Shown here: positions 1,569 to 56,778 of the stretch, piece by piece
How positions within the stretch are numbered: the stretch's first letter is position 1
Layout: every line of letters begins with the position of its first letter
Source of the DNA: Paenibacillus tundrae
Lineage (GTDB): Bacteria; Bacillota; Bacilli; Paenibacillales; Paenibacillaceae
Direction: 5' to 3'
NCBI RefSeq assembly: GCF_036884255.1
Contig: NZ_CP145605.1
Coordinates: 4,340,001 to 4,404,000 of the forward strand
DNA length: 64,000 nucleotides
Notes under the pieces: model-generated
Seen by the model: the letters and a program-made list of their open reading frames with translations, nothing else
Database searches by the model: none
Told to the model about the DNA's origin: nothing
Program-made: the position numbers and the translations under genes

Positions 1569-2372
1569 CTAGTGCAGGCACCGCCGAATACGAGCATCCA
1601 GCTCTACAGGTGAGAACGGCTTGGTCATATAATCATCAACCCCGCTACGGAAGCATTGGCTGATCGTTTGCTCCACACGCTGCTCCGTCAGAACGACAAT
1701 TTTGGGGGGCTGCTCTATCCCCAACTTCTGGATATGATGAATGAACGGCAAGCCGTCAATGCCATACAGGTTCAATTCGGTCAGTACCAGATCTGGTGCC
1801 ACCTTCTCGATAAGCTCCAGTGCAGCCAGACCATCTACAGCCTCATACGTCTCGTAGCCTTGCATCTTCAATCGCAATTGCAGAAACTCACGTACGGTCG
1901 GATCATTATCTACAATTAAAATACGTTCTGGATCTGCTGATGTCTTGTCCAGCGTGTAGATATGAATCTCCGATGAGTCTACCAGCTTCGAGGATTCAGC
2001 CATATGCTGAATGGTCGCCTGTGAAGGACGATCCTTATCCGTGAAGCTAGCCAGTGTAATCTGTGGATCGGCACCGGGTACCGTTTCCTGTAGTTCATGC
2101 TTGATCCGAAGTCCTGCATAGTGAATTTCATCCAAGGTTAATCTCGGCAATAGAACCGCAATCGTCTGCGTAGCCCCATCTTTCCACAACTGGAAATCAT
2201 AATCATGTGTCTGCTCCAAATGTGTTCGGATCTGCTGTTCTGGCTGAATATTCCCTGCACAGTGGATGAACATTAAACCGCATGTTCCGGCACCCGTTTC
2301 CTTCAACCCTTGCTCTACACTTCGATACACATTGACCGCAGTCTCACGCTGCAATGTTGCCGTATTTGGCAT
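1569..2372 (-). CDS. Degenerate GGDEF-like domain fused to a pseudo-receiver domain
   Basis: Numbering starts at the first possible codon; the likely start is the ATG at 2372 (codon 5), preceded by a GGGTGG stretch. Residues about 10-145 resemble a GGDEF fold in spacing (AVLLPRLTLDEIHYAGLRI, then ITLASF) but have DGATQ where GGDEF would sit, so no cyclase activity is expected. Residues about 154-271 are a receiver domain: ILIVDNDPTVREF, VVLTEQ with the conserved Thr, and MTKPF with the conserved Lys. The phosphoacceptor Asp is replaced by Glu203 (LTELNLYGIDG), and the second acidic-pocket Asp is Asn160. This suggests a phosphorylation-independent or phospho-mimic module. It lies between the GT2 synthase and the sugar dehydrogenase, so a post-translational regulator of polysaccharide synthesis is a reasonable inference. 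Confidence 0.75.
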   Translation of the reverse strand: MPNTATLQRETAVNVYRSVEQGLKETGAGTCGLMFIHCAGNIQPEQQIRTHLEQTHDYDFQLWKDGATQTIAVLLPRLTLDEIHYAGLRIKHELQETVPGADPQITLASFTDKDRPSQATIQHMAESSKLVDSSEIHIYTLDKTSADPERILIVDNDPTVREFLQLRLKMQGYETYEAVDGLAALELIEKVAPDLVLTELNLYGIDGLPFIHHIQKLGIEQPPKIVVLTEQRVEQTISQCFRSGVDDYMTKPFSPVELDARIRRCLH

Positions 2373-2403
2373 GTTCTTTTCCACCCTTCTTCTTCAGTAA
2401 TAA

Positions 2404-3804
2404 TCAAGCAGCTTTGCTTGCACCCTTTTCTTCTTCTGACCAGCTCTGGCGAGTCATCGTGCCCCATGAATTGTTGTTTTGCATAAACTGAATGTGACCC
2501 TGCAATCTCCAGAGCACACCGAGCTGATGATAACCTACAAATTTCAAGGCAGAGAATACCAGCATTTTGACCAGATCAGATAGCTTGTTGTAACGTTTAA
2601 ATGCAATTTCCTCCAGCACTAGCGCGCCTACACTCAGCAGATAACCACTCACAAAATTCAACAATCCGAACAACACGAGGATCGGCCACTGCGTCATATC
2701 CATCAGCACGTATCCGGCAAGTGCCAGAAGTCCGGTAATCCGGAAATAAGGGTTGAGCGCTTCAAAAATGACATTGTACGGCATCGTCACCATGCCCATT
2801 ACTTTGTATTTCGGATTGAACAACATGCCACGATTCTCAAGCATGTTCTTCAGATTTCCCCGTCCCCAGCGCTTGCGCTGACTGGACAAGATCCGGTAGG
2901 AATCCGGCGCCTGTGTCCAACATACCGCTTCAGGACAGAACGCCACGCGATACTTCAATTTATTTTCCAGCATATAGCGGTGAAGCTTGATAATAATGTT
3001 CATGTCCTCCCCAGGATAACCATCCCGGTAGCCTCCGACGGCAATAACTGCATCCTTACGGAACATACCGAAGGCACCTGATACAATGATCAAGCCATTC
3101 ATATGGCTCCAGCCAATTCGTCCGCCGAGAAAGGCTTTGAGGTACTCAATGGACTGGAACATCGGCCACATTTTGCGAGGAAGAGATACATCCTGTACGG
3201 CTCCATTTTCGATCTTACAGCCATTAGCTATACGAACATCGCCGCCAATCGCCACCGTCTCTTCTGGGTTCTCCATGTACATGCGAGCCATACGGATCAA
3301 AGCATCCTTCTCCAGAAGCGAATCGGCATCAATTGAAGAGATAAGAGGGTAGTGAGACAGATTGATTCCTGCATTAAGTGAATCCGCCTTACCACCGTTC
3401 TCCTTATCAATGACATAGAGATCCGGGAATTCTGGATTATGATAGATGCCTCGTATGTTTTTACATGCGATTTTGCCATGCATTTTCGTGTTGGTCATGG
3501 GCTTAAGATTGTACTCTTGCAGTAACTTCTTCAACGTATCGTCACTCGAACCATCGTTAACCACGATGACCTCGTACGTTGGATAGTTCAGCGTCATGAG
3601 ACAGTTTACATTTTCAATAATCGTCAGTTCCTCATTGTATGCCGGTACCAGCAAGGAGACCGAAGGCACCAGTTCCGACCCTGACAACGTATTGTATTTG
3701 GAATAGTGCGAACGCCGGAATATCGTCCATATGTTGCGGAATGAAAGGGCTAAGATGGAGAAATATAGTGTGTTAACAAAAACCACATAATATATAGCCA
3801 CCAT
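2404..3804 (-). CDS. Membrane GT2 glycosyltransferase, processive polysaccharide synthase type
   Basis: A 466-residue synthase of the BcsA/IcaA/YdaM-like class. An N-terminal helix (residues 4-24) precedes a GT2 catalytic domain with NDGSSDD (83-89), DADS (159-162), GED (265-267) and the processive signature QRKRW (309-313). Two or more hydrophobic segments follow from about residue 345 to 415. All catalytic elements are intact. No PilZ domain is present, so any c-di-GMP control would have to come from a partner. It lies 22 bases after the HEAT-repeat gene and before the pseudo-receiver gene, and is probably the polymerising enzyme of the locus. The polymer is unknown; the adjacent dehydrogenase points to a uronic-acid-containing product. 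No strong Shine-Dalgarno precedes the ATG at 3804, so coupling to the upstream gene is likely. Confidence 0.85.
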   Translation of the reverse strand: MVAIYYVVFVNTLYFSILALSFRNIWTIFRRSHYSKYNTLSGSELVPSVSLLVPAYNEELTIIENVNCLMTLNYPTYEVIVVNDGSSDDTLKKLLQEYNLKPMTNTKMHGKIACKNIRGIYHNPEFPDLYVIDKENGGKADSLNAGINLSHYPLISSIDADSLLEKDALIRMARMYMENPEETVAIGGDVRIANGCKIENGAVQDVSLPRKMWPMFQSIEYLKAFLGGRIGWSHMNGLIIVSGAFGMFRKDAVIAVGGYRDGYPGEDMNIIIKLHRYMLENKLKYRVAFCPEAVCWTQAPDSYRILSSQRKRWGRGNLKNMLENRGMLFNPKYKVMGMVTMPYNVIFEALNPYFRITGLLALAGYVLMDMTQWPILVLFGLLNFVSGYLLSVGALVLEEIAFKRYNKLSDLVKMLVFSALKFVGYHQLGVLWRLQGHIQFMQNNNSWGTMTRQSWSEEEKGASKAA

Positions 3805-3826: not shown

Positions 3827-5035
3827 CTAAGCAGTGTAATCCCCTCCTACCGTTGCCACACCTGTACGTTTCTTGCTAGTGCGATGGTCTATTGGTGAGC
3901 CAAAATACCGATCATAAAGCAGCCTTTTTTTGTTATGTGCGATCATCTGTTCAACAGCTCTATGATCCGTTCCCGTATGTTGCATCGTGCTCTCAATCTG
4001 CTGCATCGCAATTTCACGCTCTACATTTGTACCCTGTACAGCAGCTTGGCACAGCGCTTCAAATCCAGGCTCACCCAGCTTCGCCAAACTCTCGGCACTG
4101 TTGTATCGCACGCCCCAATCTTCATCTCGCAGCGCTTTGCGCAGTAACGGGATACTGCCTGATGCATGCTTCGAGCCCAGCGCTTGAGCGACTTCGGCGC
4201 GTACCTCAGGATCTGCATCCTGCATTAATTTCAAAATCGTCTCATCTCGCAGTGCAGGGCTTGCGCTAAGGTACAGCTTCACTGCCTCAGCACGTACATC
4301 CCGCTGCTCCGCGCCCACCAGTTTGTGAAGAGCAGGCATCACTTCTGGAACAGCCTGTCCCCACATAGCTACAAGTCCTACTTTTACAAAGTCGGGATTA
4401 CGGTCTTCTATTAATTCAATCAACAGCTTACTCGTATCCATGCTTGTTTCAAGTAGAATATCTGCAGCTAGGTGATGAATGGATTTGCCTTTGGTTAACA
4501 GCACCTCAAGCATCTCCTTTAACTCTCCTTGACGAACGGTGCTTCTCGCAATTGAGCGAGCAATCATGATCGCCATCGGACCAGGCTTCTCATCCTTCAG
4601 CAATTCCATAAGTCCCGGAACAGCCTCTGGACAACGCATGCCCCCTAAGCGAAACGCTGCATCGATCTGACGACCGTAACGCAGTCTGCCCAGTTCTTTT
4701 AGGTCATGCTCTACAAAACCTGACTCACGGCACAAAGCAATGAGCTTGTCGCGGTACTCTCCCTTGAACTGATCGATCCATTCAATCAACTTATTCTGGA
4801 TAACCCTGCGCTCTAACGGAGCAAGCTTGCCTGGTGGCAGCTTCAGTTGACGATTCTCCGTCAGTGCAGTTTGCAAGTACGTAAAGTAGTCCCGCTGCTT
4901 GGATTCGTACCACTCCATCTTGCGCTGTTTGCCATTGTGGGACATTTTCATGGCAAACAGCAGGATTACGCCTACAACAACAAGCGCTATACAGATATAT
5001 AGAAATAGATAAGCTAGTGCCAAATTGGGAAACAT
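3827..5035 (-). CDS. Membrane-anchored HEAT-repeat protein of the EPS operon
   Basis: The 402-residue protein starts with a hydrophobic helix (residues 5-28), a basic linker, then a long alpha-helical solenoid. Repeating units of about 30 residues with the pattern D.dp.VR..A...L (for example DADPEVRAEVAQAL and DEDWGVRYNSAESL) identify HEAT or PBS-lyase type repeats between about residues 120 and 345. Such solenoids serve as protein-binding scaffolds; a cytoplasmic scaffold joining synthase and regulator at the membrane is my inference. A good Shine-Dalgarno (AAGGAGGACT) lies upstream of the ATG at 5035. The gene is separated from the hydrolase upstream by a 167-bp palindromic repeat rather than by a tight junction. 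Confidence 0.8.
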   Translation of the reverse strand: MFPNLALAYLFLYICIALVVVGVILLFAMKMSHNGKQRKMEWYESKQRDYFTYLQTALTENRQLKLPPGKLAPLERRVIQNKLIEWIDQFKGEYRDKLIALCRESGFVEHDLKELGRLRYGRQIDAAFRLGGMRCPEAVPGLMELLKDEKPGPMAIMIARSIARSTVRQGELKEMLEVLLTKGKSIHHLAADILLETSMDTSKLLIELIEDRNPDFVKVGLVAMWGQAVPEVMPALHKLVGAEQRDVRAEAVKLYLSASPALRDETILKLMQDADPEVRAEVAQALGSKHASGSIPLLRKALRDEDWGVRYNSAESLAKLGEPGFEALCQAAVQGTNVEREIAMQQIESTMQHTGTDHRAVEQMIAHNKKRLLYDRYFGSPIDHRTSKKRTGVATVGGDYTA

Positions 5036-5061
5036 TCGAAAAAGTCCTCCTTATATTGCGT

Positions 5062-5228
5062 GTTCAAAAAGGTCGGTTTTCAGTACCAAGAAAATGGGAT
5101 GAAGATAGAAATGGAGTAGCGGAGCGTAGATTAAGCTACGTGAGCAACGGACATTTCGGCTGAATCCCATATTCGAAGCTGAGATGTCGCTTGCGCATCC
5201 TTCGTAATCAAAAGCGGACTTTTTGAAC
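5062..5228 (+). repeat. Dispersed palindromic repeat, full-length copy A
   Basis: Termini GTTCAAAAAGGTCGGTTTT and AAAAGCGGACTTTTTGAAC form a near-perfect inverted repeat around an interior with further self-complementary blocks (GATGGGAT/ATCCCAT, CGTAG/CTACG). Conserved flanks extend to GCGT on the left and AACCTCTTA on the right. Further copies: 16866-17062, 17073-17238, 17256-17422 and 36927-37092, plus short forms at 10161, 45732 and 55572. It has no ORF. The right end stops 8 bases from the stop codon of the upstream hydrolase gene. Confidence 0.9.
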
Positions 5229-5244
5229 AACCTCTTATCTTGAT

Positions 5245-10051: not shown

Positions 10052-10160
10052 TATCAAGAATAACGATATAGAAGGCAGCTCTCTCGTACTAAAGGAGCAA
10101 AAGGAACCAGAAGTGATTCAAAAGATCATCTTAAGGGTATATTTCGCTTTCTTCATGCGT

Positions 10161-10183
10161 GTTCAAAAAGATCGGTTTTGAAC
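10161..10183 (+). repeat. Dispersed palindromic repeat, end-only miniature (copy F)
   Basis: GTTCAAAAAGATCGGTTTTGAAC is the left terminus joined almost directly to the right terminus, flanked by the family-typical GCGT and AACCTCTTTTA. It has lost the whole interior. The terminal TTA of the right flank is the stop codon of the glutaminase gene on the minus strand. Confidence 0.85.
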
Positions 10184-10191
10184 AACCTCTT

Positions 10192-16865: not shown

Positions 16866-17062
16866 TTTTTCAGTACCAAGAAGATGGGACGAAGCTAGAA
16901 ATGGAGTAGCGGAGCGTAGATAAGACTACGTGAGCAACTACATTGTTTCCGAAGGAAACAACCTTCGTAAGCATCTACTTATTTCGGCTGAGTCCCAGCT
17001 TCGCCGCTGATGATGCCGCAGGCATCTTTCGTAATCAAAGGCGGACTTTTTGAACTACCTCT
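16866..17062 (+). repeat. Dispersed palindromic repeat, copy B (tandem array, first unit)
   Basis: Lacks the leftmost GTTCAAAAAG terminus but keeps the rest of the unit and a full right end. It carries an insertion of about 42 bases after GTGAGCAAC (16938 onward), containing its own small hairpin (GTTTCC/GGAAAC), that copies C and D do not have. Confidence 0.88.
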
Positions 17063-17072
17063 TACAATCGAA

Positions 17073-17238
17073 GTTCAAAAAGTACGGTTTTCAGTACCAA
17101 GAAGATGGGATGAAGCTAGAAATGGAGTAGCGGAGCGTAGATAAAACTACGTGAGCAACGGACATTTCGGCTGAGTCCCAGCTTCGACGCTGATGATGCC
17201 GCAGGCATCTTTCGTAATCAAAAGCGGACTTTTTGAAC
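17073..17238 (+). repeat. Dispersed palindromic repeat, copy C (tandem array, second unit)
   Basis: Complete 166-bp unit with inverted termini GTTCAAAAAGTACGGTTTT and AAAAGCGGACTTTTTGAAC. The period to copy D is 183 bases, including an identical linker, so the array grew by duplication of element plus linker. Confidence 0.92.
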
Positions 17239-17255
17239 TACCTCTTACAATCGAA

Positions 17256-17422
17256 GTTCAAAAAGTACGGTTTTCAGTACCAAGAAGATGGGATGAAGCT
17301 AGAAATGGAGTAGCGGAGCGTAGATAAAACTACGTGAGCAACGGACATTTCGGTTGAATCCCAGCTTCGACGCTGATGATGCCGCTAGGCATCTATCGTA
17401 ATCAAAAGCGGACTTTTTGAAC
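17256..17422 (+). repeat. Dispersed palindromic repeat, copy D (tandem array, third unit)
   Basis: 167-bp unit nearly identical to copy C with a few substitutions and one inserted base (GCTAGGC). Its right flank TACCTCTA ends 3 bases before the recG stop codon on the minus strand. Confidence 0.92.
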
Positions 17423-17432
17423 TACCTCTAAG

Positions 17433-36856: not shown

Positions 36857-36926
36857 GTTATTTCCCCCAGTCTATGCGACATTTAAACGATAAATAGGAA
36901 TCTATCTTGTAAACCCTTTAGAGGTT

Positions 36927-37092
36927 GTTCAAAAAGTCCGCTTTTGATTACGAAGGATGCCTGGAGGCATCTCAGCGTCGAAGATGGGATTCAGCCGAAA
37001 TGTCCGTTGCTCACGTAGTTTGGCCTACGCTCCGCTATTCCATTTCTACCTTCATCCCATCTTCTCGGTACTGAAAACCGACCTTTTTGAAC
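36927..37092 (-). repeat. Dispersed palindromic repeat, full-length copy E (reverse orientation)
   Basis: 166-bp element with inverted termini, running opposite to copies A-D: AGAGGTTGTTCAAAAAG on the left and CTTTTTGAACACGT on the right. Interior blocks match copy A at most positions. It lies between rpoZ and coaBC. Confidence 0.92.
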
Positions 37093-37128
37093 ACGTACCT
37101 TTAGTTCGTTATAAGAAGAATTCAATAG

Positions 37129-37422: not shown

Positions 37423-37648
37423 AGTTACAAAACACCTCTTCACATTAGTATAATCACCCTTCACCGCCAGACCGAACTTCAAGAGGCTGTTCAAATAGGT
37501 CATTTTCACGATAATGAAAACACGATTAATTCGAACATGCATCTACACAGTCCGGTCTGTATCCGTCATCCACACGAACGCGTTCTTTATCTATATATCC
37601 TATGACTGTAGTCGTGTGGAATATCGCATGTTGCTGCGGTAAAAGAGA

Positions 37649-45427: not shown

Positions 45428-45731
45428 GCTCCTTGGTTCCCTCCCAGTCTGTATTTCATCTGCAAAACTAGCTCACATGCATCACCGGCGCGCTGGTCGA
45501 CAGGCTGTACACTATGCCGGACAAACTACCTAATCTATATGTATTCGGACAGACCCTTGATTAGCACACGGAAGGTGAATCCTTTCCCTAAGGGGCATAA
45601 TAGGCTAAAATAAAAGTCTGTGGTTATATATACGCAACCGAGTTTAGCGTCCCATAGGTAGTAACAGCAAAACTACAACCGCCCTATCTTTTGTATACAT
45701 AGCCCGGTTGCTCGTTTCAGTTAAAGAAGTT

Positions 45732-45755
45732 GTTCAAACATTGGTCTTTTTGAAC
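45732..45755 (-). repeat. Dispersed palindromic repeat, end-only miniature (copy H)
   Basis: GTTCAAACATTGGTCTTTTTGAAC, flanked by AAGTT on the left and ACACAC on the right, is a decayed end-to-end form in the reverse orientation. The rest of the 390-base divergent interval 45428-45818 shows no gene; it must hold promoters of both neighbours. Confidence 0.7.
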
Positions 45756-45818
45756 ACACACTTATAGATGTAGCATCTGGCATGAAGTCAGACGCTCGAT
45801 AGAGAGGAAGTGGAGAAA

Positions 45819-55538: not shown

Positions 55539-55571
55539 CCAATGAGTTGGTTAATCATTCTATAAGTGCGT

Positions 55572-55600
55572 GTTCAAAAAGGACGGTGGACTTTATGAAC
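55572..55600 (+). repeat. Dispersed palindromic repeat, end-only miniature (copy G)
   Basis: GTTCAAAAAGGACGGTGGACTTTATGAAC with the family flanks GTGC.GT on the left and AACCTCTA on the right. The final CTA of the right flank is the stop codon of the M20 amidohydrolase on the minus strand. Confidence 0.85.
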
Positions 55601-55605
55601 AACCT

Positions 55606-56778
55606 CTATAATTCAGCCGTATAACCTGTCGCCATCGCAATAAACAGCTTAACTGCATGCTGCATCGCATCTTCATCAAAGTCAAACTTCGGATGATGGT
55701 GCGGATAGATTGCGCCTTTATCTGGATTGCCTGCACCAACAAACATAAAGCAGCCAGGAATCTGCTGTAAATAATAAGCAAAATCCTCTGCAGGCATGAT
55801 CATTGGTGAAGCTTGTACATTTTGTGAGCCAAATACATGCACCGCTTCTTGGAAGAACCGTTCTGTTTCCCGCTCATCATTAACAACTGGCGGGTAACCC
55901 ATGATATATTTGATATCCGTCTTAGCTCCATAGGCTGCACCCGTCTGAGCCACCATGGTGTGAATGCGTTCTTTCATCCCCGATCGGGTCTCTTCATCAA
56001 ACGTTCTGACCGTGCCACTCATTTTACAGGATTCCGCAATAACGTTCTGTGCAGCTCCAGCTTGCATTGTACCAATTGTCAGCACCGCCGGTCGCAATGG
56101 ATCGACGGAACGACTAACTACCGTCTGTAATTGCATCACCAGTGCTGATCCTGCCACCAAGCTGTCTACAGTCGACTGCGGCATCCCCCCATGACCACCT
56201 TTGCCTGTGATCTCAATATAGAAATCATCCGCCGCGGCCATCATTGATCCCGCCGTACTCGCGGCAACACCTACAGGTAGAGGTGTCCACAGATGAATTC
56301 CATAGATGACATCTACGCCATCAAGCCCACCGTCGGCAATGACGTGAACTGCTCCGCCAGGCAATAGCTCTTCTGCTGGTTGGAACAGAAAACGAATCTC
56401 TCCTTTAATTGCAGCCTTATTACGACTGAAATACAATGCTGTTCCTAGCAGAATCGAAACGTGTCCATCATGACCACATGCGTGCATGGCTCCATCTTTT
56501 CTAGAAGCATATTCTATATCCTTCTCGTCTTGGATAGGCAAAGCGTCCATATCAGCTCGAAGCATGACTACAGGACCTGGCTGATCTCCGCGGATCGTAC
56601 CGATAACTCCATGCCCCCCCACATGACGCTTCACTTCCACGCCAAAGCTCTCCAGCATATCTGCTACAAAAGATGAGGTCTTCTCCTCATGAAAGGAAAC
56701 TTCAGGATTGCGATGAAGATGACGGCGCCACTCCACCATATGGATTTGCAGATCATCCCACCATATATTATTTGTCAT
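55606..56778 (-). CDS. M20-family amidohydrolase (N-acyl-amino-acid hydrolase/HipO-like)
   Basis: 390 residues with the M20D metal-site pattern: LHRNPEVSFHEEKT, MLRADMDALPIQ, HACGHDGHVSILLG, FQPAEELLPGG, and late MPAEDFAYY and HHHPKFDFDEDAM. Members cleave acyl groups from amino acids (hippurate, indole-acetyl-amino acids, N-acetyl-diaminopimelate); the substrate is not predictable. GAGGAAAT before the ATG. Divergent from yugN. The C-terminal stop codon lies in a repeat remnant, so the last residues may have been altered by insertion. Confidence 0.9.
   Translation of the reverse strand: MTNNIWWDDLQIHMVEWRRHLHRNPEVSFHEEKTSSFVADMLESFGVEVKRHVGGHGVIGTIRGDQPGPVVMLRADMDALPIQDEKDIEYASRKDGAMHACGHDGHVSILLGTALYFSRNKAAIKGEIRFLFQPAEELLPGGAVHVIADGGLDGVDVIYGIHLWTPLPVGVAASTAGSMMAAADDFYIEITGKGGHGGMPQSTVDSLVAGSALVMQLQTVVSRSVDPLRPAVLTIGTMQAGAAQNVIAESCKMSGTVRTFDEETRSGMKERIHTMVAQTGAAYGAKTDIKYIMGYPPVVNDERETERFFQEAVHVFGSQNVQASPMIMPAEDFAYYLQQIPGCFMFVGAGNPDKGAIYPHHHPKFDFDEDAMQHAVKLFIAMATGYTAEL

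Follow-up and report, generated by a model that had tools for sequence, protein, structure and literature searches.

The window is a stretch of 64,000 nucleotides, positions 4,340,001-4,404,000 of a complete chromosome of 6.53 Mb, and it carries members of a family of short palindromic repeats (Table 1). The first-pass annotation had listed five long copies of 166 bp, a description that was partly confirmed. Four of these copies, starting at 5062, 17073 and 17256 on the plus strand and at 36927 on the minus strand, showed the reported inverted ends GTTCAAAAAG...CTTTTTGAAC together with the outer conserved bases GCGT and AACCTC; both orientations were indeed present, and no long ORF was found inside the element. 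The length, however, had to be corrected. Since GTGCGT and AACCTC are part of the element, its true size is about 178 bp (5056-5234 in the first copy). The copy at 16866 is a genuine repeat, but it has no left terminus and belongs to a longer 204 class instead of the 166 class. Positions 16866-17428 form one tandem array, the period of which, 183, corresponds to approximately one element (178) and one 5-bp duplication, and the window therefore holds three full-size insertion loci and not five. Four miniature derivatives ("minis"), included in Table 1, had been missed. The window contained 14 occurrences of the motif TGTTCAAAAAG with at most one mismatch, where 1.9 would be expected, and none of 100 shuffles reached as high a count.

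Table 1. Repeat elements of the window, numbered from its first letter, and other located features mentioned in the text.
Location	Feature	Positions	Strand	Score (bits)	Flanks and other marks
Window	Full-length element, 166 class	5056..5234	+	208	GTTC 5062 to GAAC 5228; TTATA 5051-5055 left, TTATC 5235-5239 right
Window	Mini derivative, 35 bp, ends only	10155..10189	+		
Window	204-class element without left end, array unit 1	16866..17061	+	124	
Window	Full-length element, 166 class, array unit 2	17067..17244	+	207	TTACA on both sides, 17062-17066 and 17245-17249
Window	Full-length element, 166 class, array unit 3	17250..17428	+	211	
Window	Full-length element, 166 class	36921..37098	-	210	Perfect 5-bp duplication CTTTA, 36916-36920 and 37099-37103
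Window	Mini derivative, decayed, about 60 bp	37483..37542	-		
Window	Mini derivative, 36 bp	45726..45761	-		TTAAA / TTATA
Window	Mini derivative, 41 bp	55566..55606	+		Perfect duplication TATAA, 55561-55565 and 55607-55611
Host chromosome (G000)	Nine rve-type insertion sequences	705862, 1219361, 1228222, 1444280, 1667794, 2329728, 5574938, 5868485, 6025012			TGG...CCA ends
L201 (G060)	Sub-family copy	4929-5107			
L202 (G060)	Sub-family copy	4788-4966			
L203 (G060)	Sub-family copy	4813-4991			
L256 (prophage contig)	Variant of 329 bp	2297-2625			

The element reads G[TA]GCGTGTTCAAAAAG...CTTTTTGAACAACCTC and is about 178 or about 216 bp long, with no ORF and no transposase gene. Its asymmetric inverted ends, G[TA]GCGTGTTCAAAAAG and GAGGTTGTTCAAAAAG, start with GTGCGTG and GAGGTTG, respectively. 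Measured from GTTC to GAAC, unit lengths fell sharply into two groups, 165-168 and 202-206, beside a tail of minis of 47-71 bp; a single central module distinguishes the 204 class from the 166 class. When 52 copies were aligned, left and right flanks matched above chance in one register, over 4-5 positions only. The target duplications proposed for inspection by the first-pass annotation were thus found; they are of fixed length, 5 bp, and follow the pattern TWWWA. All fetched loci together supplied 300 end pairs. A perfect 5-bp duplication flanked 84 of these, whereas shuffled flanks predict 8.2; T is the first base in 81 and A the last in 83, and the duplications fall into classes such as TATAA, TTAAA, TAAAA, TAATA and TACAA. 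A C to the left and a G to the right of the target were preferred, which makes the target roughly palindromic, C-TWWWA-G. Many perfect duplications were also present in other genomes, and minis consisting of ends only carried them likewise.

Occupied and empty versions of the same site were observed between species. Locus L029 is occupied where the host locus L126 has a single target TTTAA, and L025 is occupied where the host locus L069 has a single TTAAA; in the reverse direction, L069 is occupied at a TTAAA target that is empty in L025. Flank identity in these close pairs was 94-98%, and two further occupied/empty pairs were recorded between less close species. It had been argued from the window alone that mobility would be doubtful if all copies sat at the same sites in relatives; for several sites, however, one species was found to have the element and another the empty target. 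The site of the minus-strand window copy at 36921 is also occupied in a relative (L035). Since some sites are common to relatives while others are empty, some insertions are old and some new. Precise excision could in principle account for the empty sites, although the pattern runs in both directions. A non-coding unit with inverted ends was inserted into intergenic C-TWWWA-G sites and the 5-bp TWWWA was duplicated, which shows that the element transposed as a defined DNA unit. The MITE-like character suggested earlier is upheld by the inverted ends, the 5-bp duplications, the empty sites, the intergenic dispersal in both orientations and the lack of coding capacity, and we consider the repeat to be a family of non-autonomous transposons (MITEs) with a probability of about 0.92. 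In the mechanism that we envisage, a DDE-type transposase acting in trans would recognise the ends of approximately 16 bp and cut and join the element, and central modules would be swapped between copies by gene conversion.

The sampled host loci, 1.6 Mb in total and mostly picked for holding copies, contained about 93 distinct copies, among which 62 were near full-length; four control loci contained none. Over the whole chromosome one end pattern, which catches both ends of the element, matched 174 times and a second one 93 times; the respective reversed controls gave 3 and 0. All 62 full copies were intergenic, in sampled DNA that was 79% coding according to a simple gene caller. Of 250 genomes of the order, a covariance model recovered the repeat in 105, which represent 20 of 47 genera and four families. 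An exact-pattern scan of named genomes placed the relatives of the window's chromosome in the Paenibacillus tundrae / amylolyticus / xylanexedens group. Copies of the 204 class were present on prophage contigs (L265, L266, L285, L287), and prophages are a plausible vehicle for the spread of the element; the phage records searched gave no family match, and plasmid records gave matches in Paenibacillus only. The variant on prophage contig L256 has the same ends and no transposase gene inside. Sub-families with the same ends and partly different interiors also occurred (L201-L203, L204 and L205); the three copies L201-L203 of genome G060, 98% identical, suggest recent movement there.

Some features of the distribution along the host chromosome were recorded in passing. 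No right-end match was found at about 2.93-4.07 Mb, i.e., in 1.15 Mb around the terminus, where about 16 were expected from the genome-wide count. With arrays collapsed, 36 elements were oriented against the replication fork and 21 with it, a weak bias (binomial p about 0.06). Long ORFs ended at most 12 bp from the right end of the element in 16 cases and from the left end in 6 cases in the host loci. Examples of these right ends lie at window positions 5235 and 17429, and stop codons within the TWWWA targets account for part of the excess.

A transposase with matching ends, the search for which had also been proposed, was looked for in selected genomes and was not found. Exact-end patterns run against 76 genomes of the genus returned, among the matches listed, only MITEs, minis and chance matches in coding sequence. 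The host genome has no DDE_Tnp_1 or DDE_Tnp_1_6 protein (IS4, IS5 and IS1182 types) and no Tn3 transposase, and loci of four Pfam families (DDE_Tnp_1, DDE_Tnp_1_6, rve and Tn3) in selected genomes had no matching ends. Several candidates were rejected. The nine rve-type (IS3-type) insertion sequences of the host chromosome, nearly identical, with a protein of 327 aa and apparently recently active, have unrelated ends. A multi-copy DDE_Tnp_1 insertion sequence of about 1.25 kb in genome G046 (L211, L214, L216, L222, L228) has ends CACGCCTGTTGAATAACC, which are only superficially similar, and duplications of about 9 bp. A triplicate end in G060 proved to be another non-coding sub-family, the end pair spanning 1.9 kb in L071 corresponded to two ordinary genes, and the pairs in L066 (1465 bp) and L105 (1168 bp) enclosed ordinary genes as well. 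The partner transposase may have been lost, may be unsampled or may belong to another family. In a more specific form of the MITE reading, the element would be an internal-deletion derivative of an insertion sequence still living in an unsampled Paenibacillales genome. Such an origin is usual for MITEs, and the sub-families with the same ends, those of L201-L203, L204, L205 and the prophage L256, look like the products of one trans-acting enzyme. Against this, no such element with these ends was among the matches listed from the 76 genomes of the genus, and the conservation of the interior across families is unlike a chance deletion scar; we rate this origin at slightly less than even odds.

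The interior is selected for a long imperfect hairpin on one strand, as was shown statistically. Compared with shuffles, single copies had fold z-scores of -4.0 as DNA and -6.0 as RNA. The consensus structure of 46 diverse copies comprised 48 pairs, 13 of them with two-sided changes; the 204-class alignment folded poorly at first, and that fold was left out. Covariation amounted to 40 cells versus 5.3 in shuffles, none of 500 being as high, and was far above that of slid registers. Non-Watson-Crick pairs on the top strand were G-U in 86 copies at 20 sites versus A-C in 13 copies at 10 sites, a tally that counts related copies and not independent events. Mutation bias was rejected as the cause of the G-U excess, as in unpaired columns G>A was commoner than C>U, a lean opposite to that of the paired columns. 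The reverse-strand alignment folded much worse (-11.3 versus -34.5) and G-U pairs become C-A mismatches on the complement, so that the top strand is apparently selected in single-stranded form. The folded molecule appears to be either RNA or single-stranded DNA, the strand asymmetry fitting both.

The strong fold, the covariation, the top-strand bias and the order-wide conservation of the interior all suit a functional non-coding RNA family, regulatory or small RNA, which would be multi-copy only incidentally and in which the ends would form the base of a hairpin. Transposition, however, is evident from the target duplications and empty sites, and ends-only minis have target duplications as well; no Rfam family matched the element above the gathering score. 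Orientation relative to co-directional neighbour genes was near random (19 sense, 25 antisense), and broken pairs averaged 2.0 in sense and 1.4 in antisense copies. As broken pairs were no fewer in sense copies, a role in host mRNA is unlikely, and we regard the non-coding RNA explanation as a whole as improbable. Since structural integrity is independent of the orientation to host genes, the top strand of this MITE, folded as RNA or as single-stranded DNA, might matter to the propagation of the element itself rather than to adjacent genes of the host. The stronger proposal, that a strand-specific folded intermediate made from the interior is needed for spread and that the structure serves transposition rather than host gene control, is at present doubtful.

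Three kinds of change were shown to affect copies after insertion: loss of internal sequence, in-place replacement of the central module, and tandem amplification, whose period is that of the element plus 5 bp. At least some minis were shown to be internal deletions, with a full copy in L027 facing 47 bp at the same site in the host locus L100. The 166 form and the 204 form were found at the same site in different species in L051/L033, L028+L006/L022+L013 and L118/L036. Both forms had the same flanks at these sites and private arm mutations in common, and at all three the swap exchanged GGAC for about 42 nt at one constant position. In L118/L036 both species carry a destroyed right end, which makes re-transposition of the element very unlikely. 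The module exchange would be explained most simply by gene conversion between copies. Tandem arrays had periods of about 183, one element and one duplication. The exchange in place implies that recombination between copies occurs, and together with the array period and the failure to find a transposase it would suit movement by site-specific or homologous recombination between short T/A motifs, as suggested for bcr elements, with no transposase involved. The duplication, however, varies freely within TWWWA, which would not result from a fixed-core recombinase, and apart from the target preference no homology links the new sites to the element, so that we find this route highly improbable. A REP/RAYT-type family mobilised by a Y1 (IS200/IS605-like) transposase, in line with the REP-like alternative of the first-pass annotation, has next to no chance of being correct: although the repeat is palindromic, intergenic and present in many copies, and strand-specific folding would suit single-stranded DNA transposition, 5-bp duplications and inverted ends of about 16 bp are not products of Y1 transposition, and the units measure about 178-216 bp, far above 20-40 bp.

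No description of the repeat in Paenibacillus was found in the open-licence literature, and the element appears to be a hitherto undescribed mobile repeat, an orphan MITE whose strand-specific fold is unusually well conserved. The repeat is common across Paenibacillaceae and neighbouring families, and with its exact boundaries, target rule and covariance model genomes can now be annotated for it. The top strand of the element has a covarying structure that different genera have retained whatever the gene orientation. This is unusual for a MITE, and it turns the purpose of a MITE interior into a testable question.

Among the known systems, REP/REPIN sequences with their RAYT partners are likewise palindromic, intergenic and numerous, but the Paenibacillus element has target duplications and a far longer unit. 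TIMEs, the Tn3-derived miniature elements, resemble it in the 5-bp A/T-rich duplication and in a size of a few hundred bp. TIMEs have 38-bp GGGG-type ends, whereas the Paenibacillus element has no such ends and its host genome no Tn3 transposase. Correia elements of Neisseria and RUP of Streptococcus are, like the element described here, short, non-coding and intergenic, with inverted ends, target duplication and mobilisation in trans. Correia and RUP duplicate TA; the Paenibacillus element differs in its 5-bp TWWWA duplication, in its conserved covarying interior and in having no known partner transposase. The closest analogue, compared by description, is bcr1 of Bacillus cereus. In the B. 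cereus group, bcr1 (group A repeats bcr1-bcr3) is described as mostly chromosomal and intergenic, of the 100-400 bp class, with up to about 130 copies and a T/A-rich 5-bp flanking motif, as MITE-like, and as often lying within transcripts (PMC6542083, PMC3446304). The two repeats agree in intergenic location, size class, T/A-rich 5-bp flank and MITE-like character; they differ in host group, in the ends, which are GTGCGTGTTCAAAAAG / GAGGTTGTTCAAAAAG in the Paenibacillus element, and in the flank, which is a fixed TTTAT in bcr1 and a variable TWWWA, a true duplication, in Paenibacillus.
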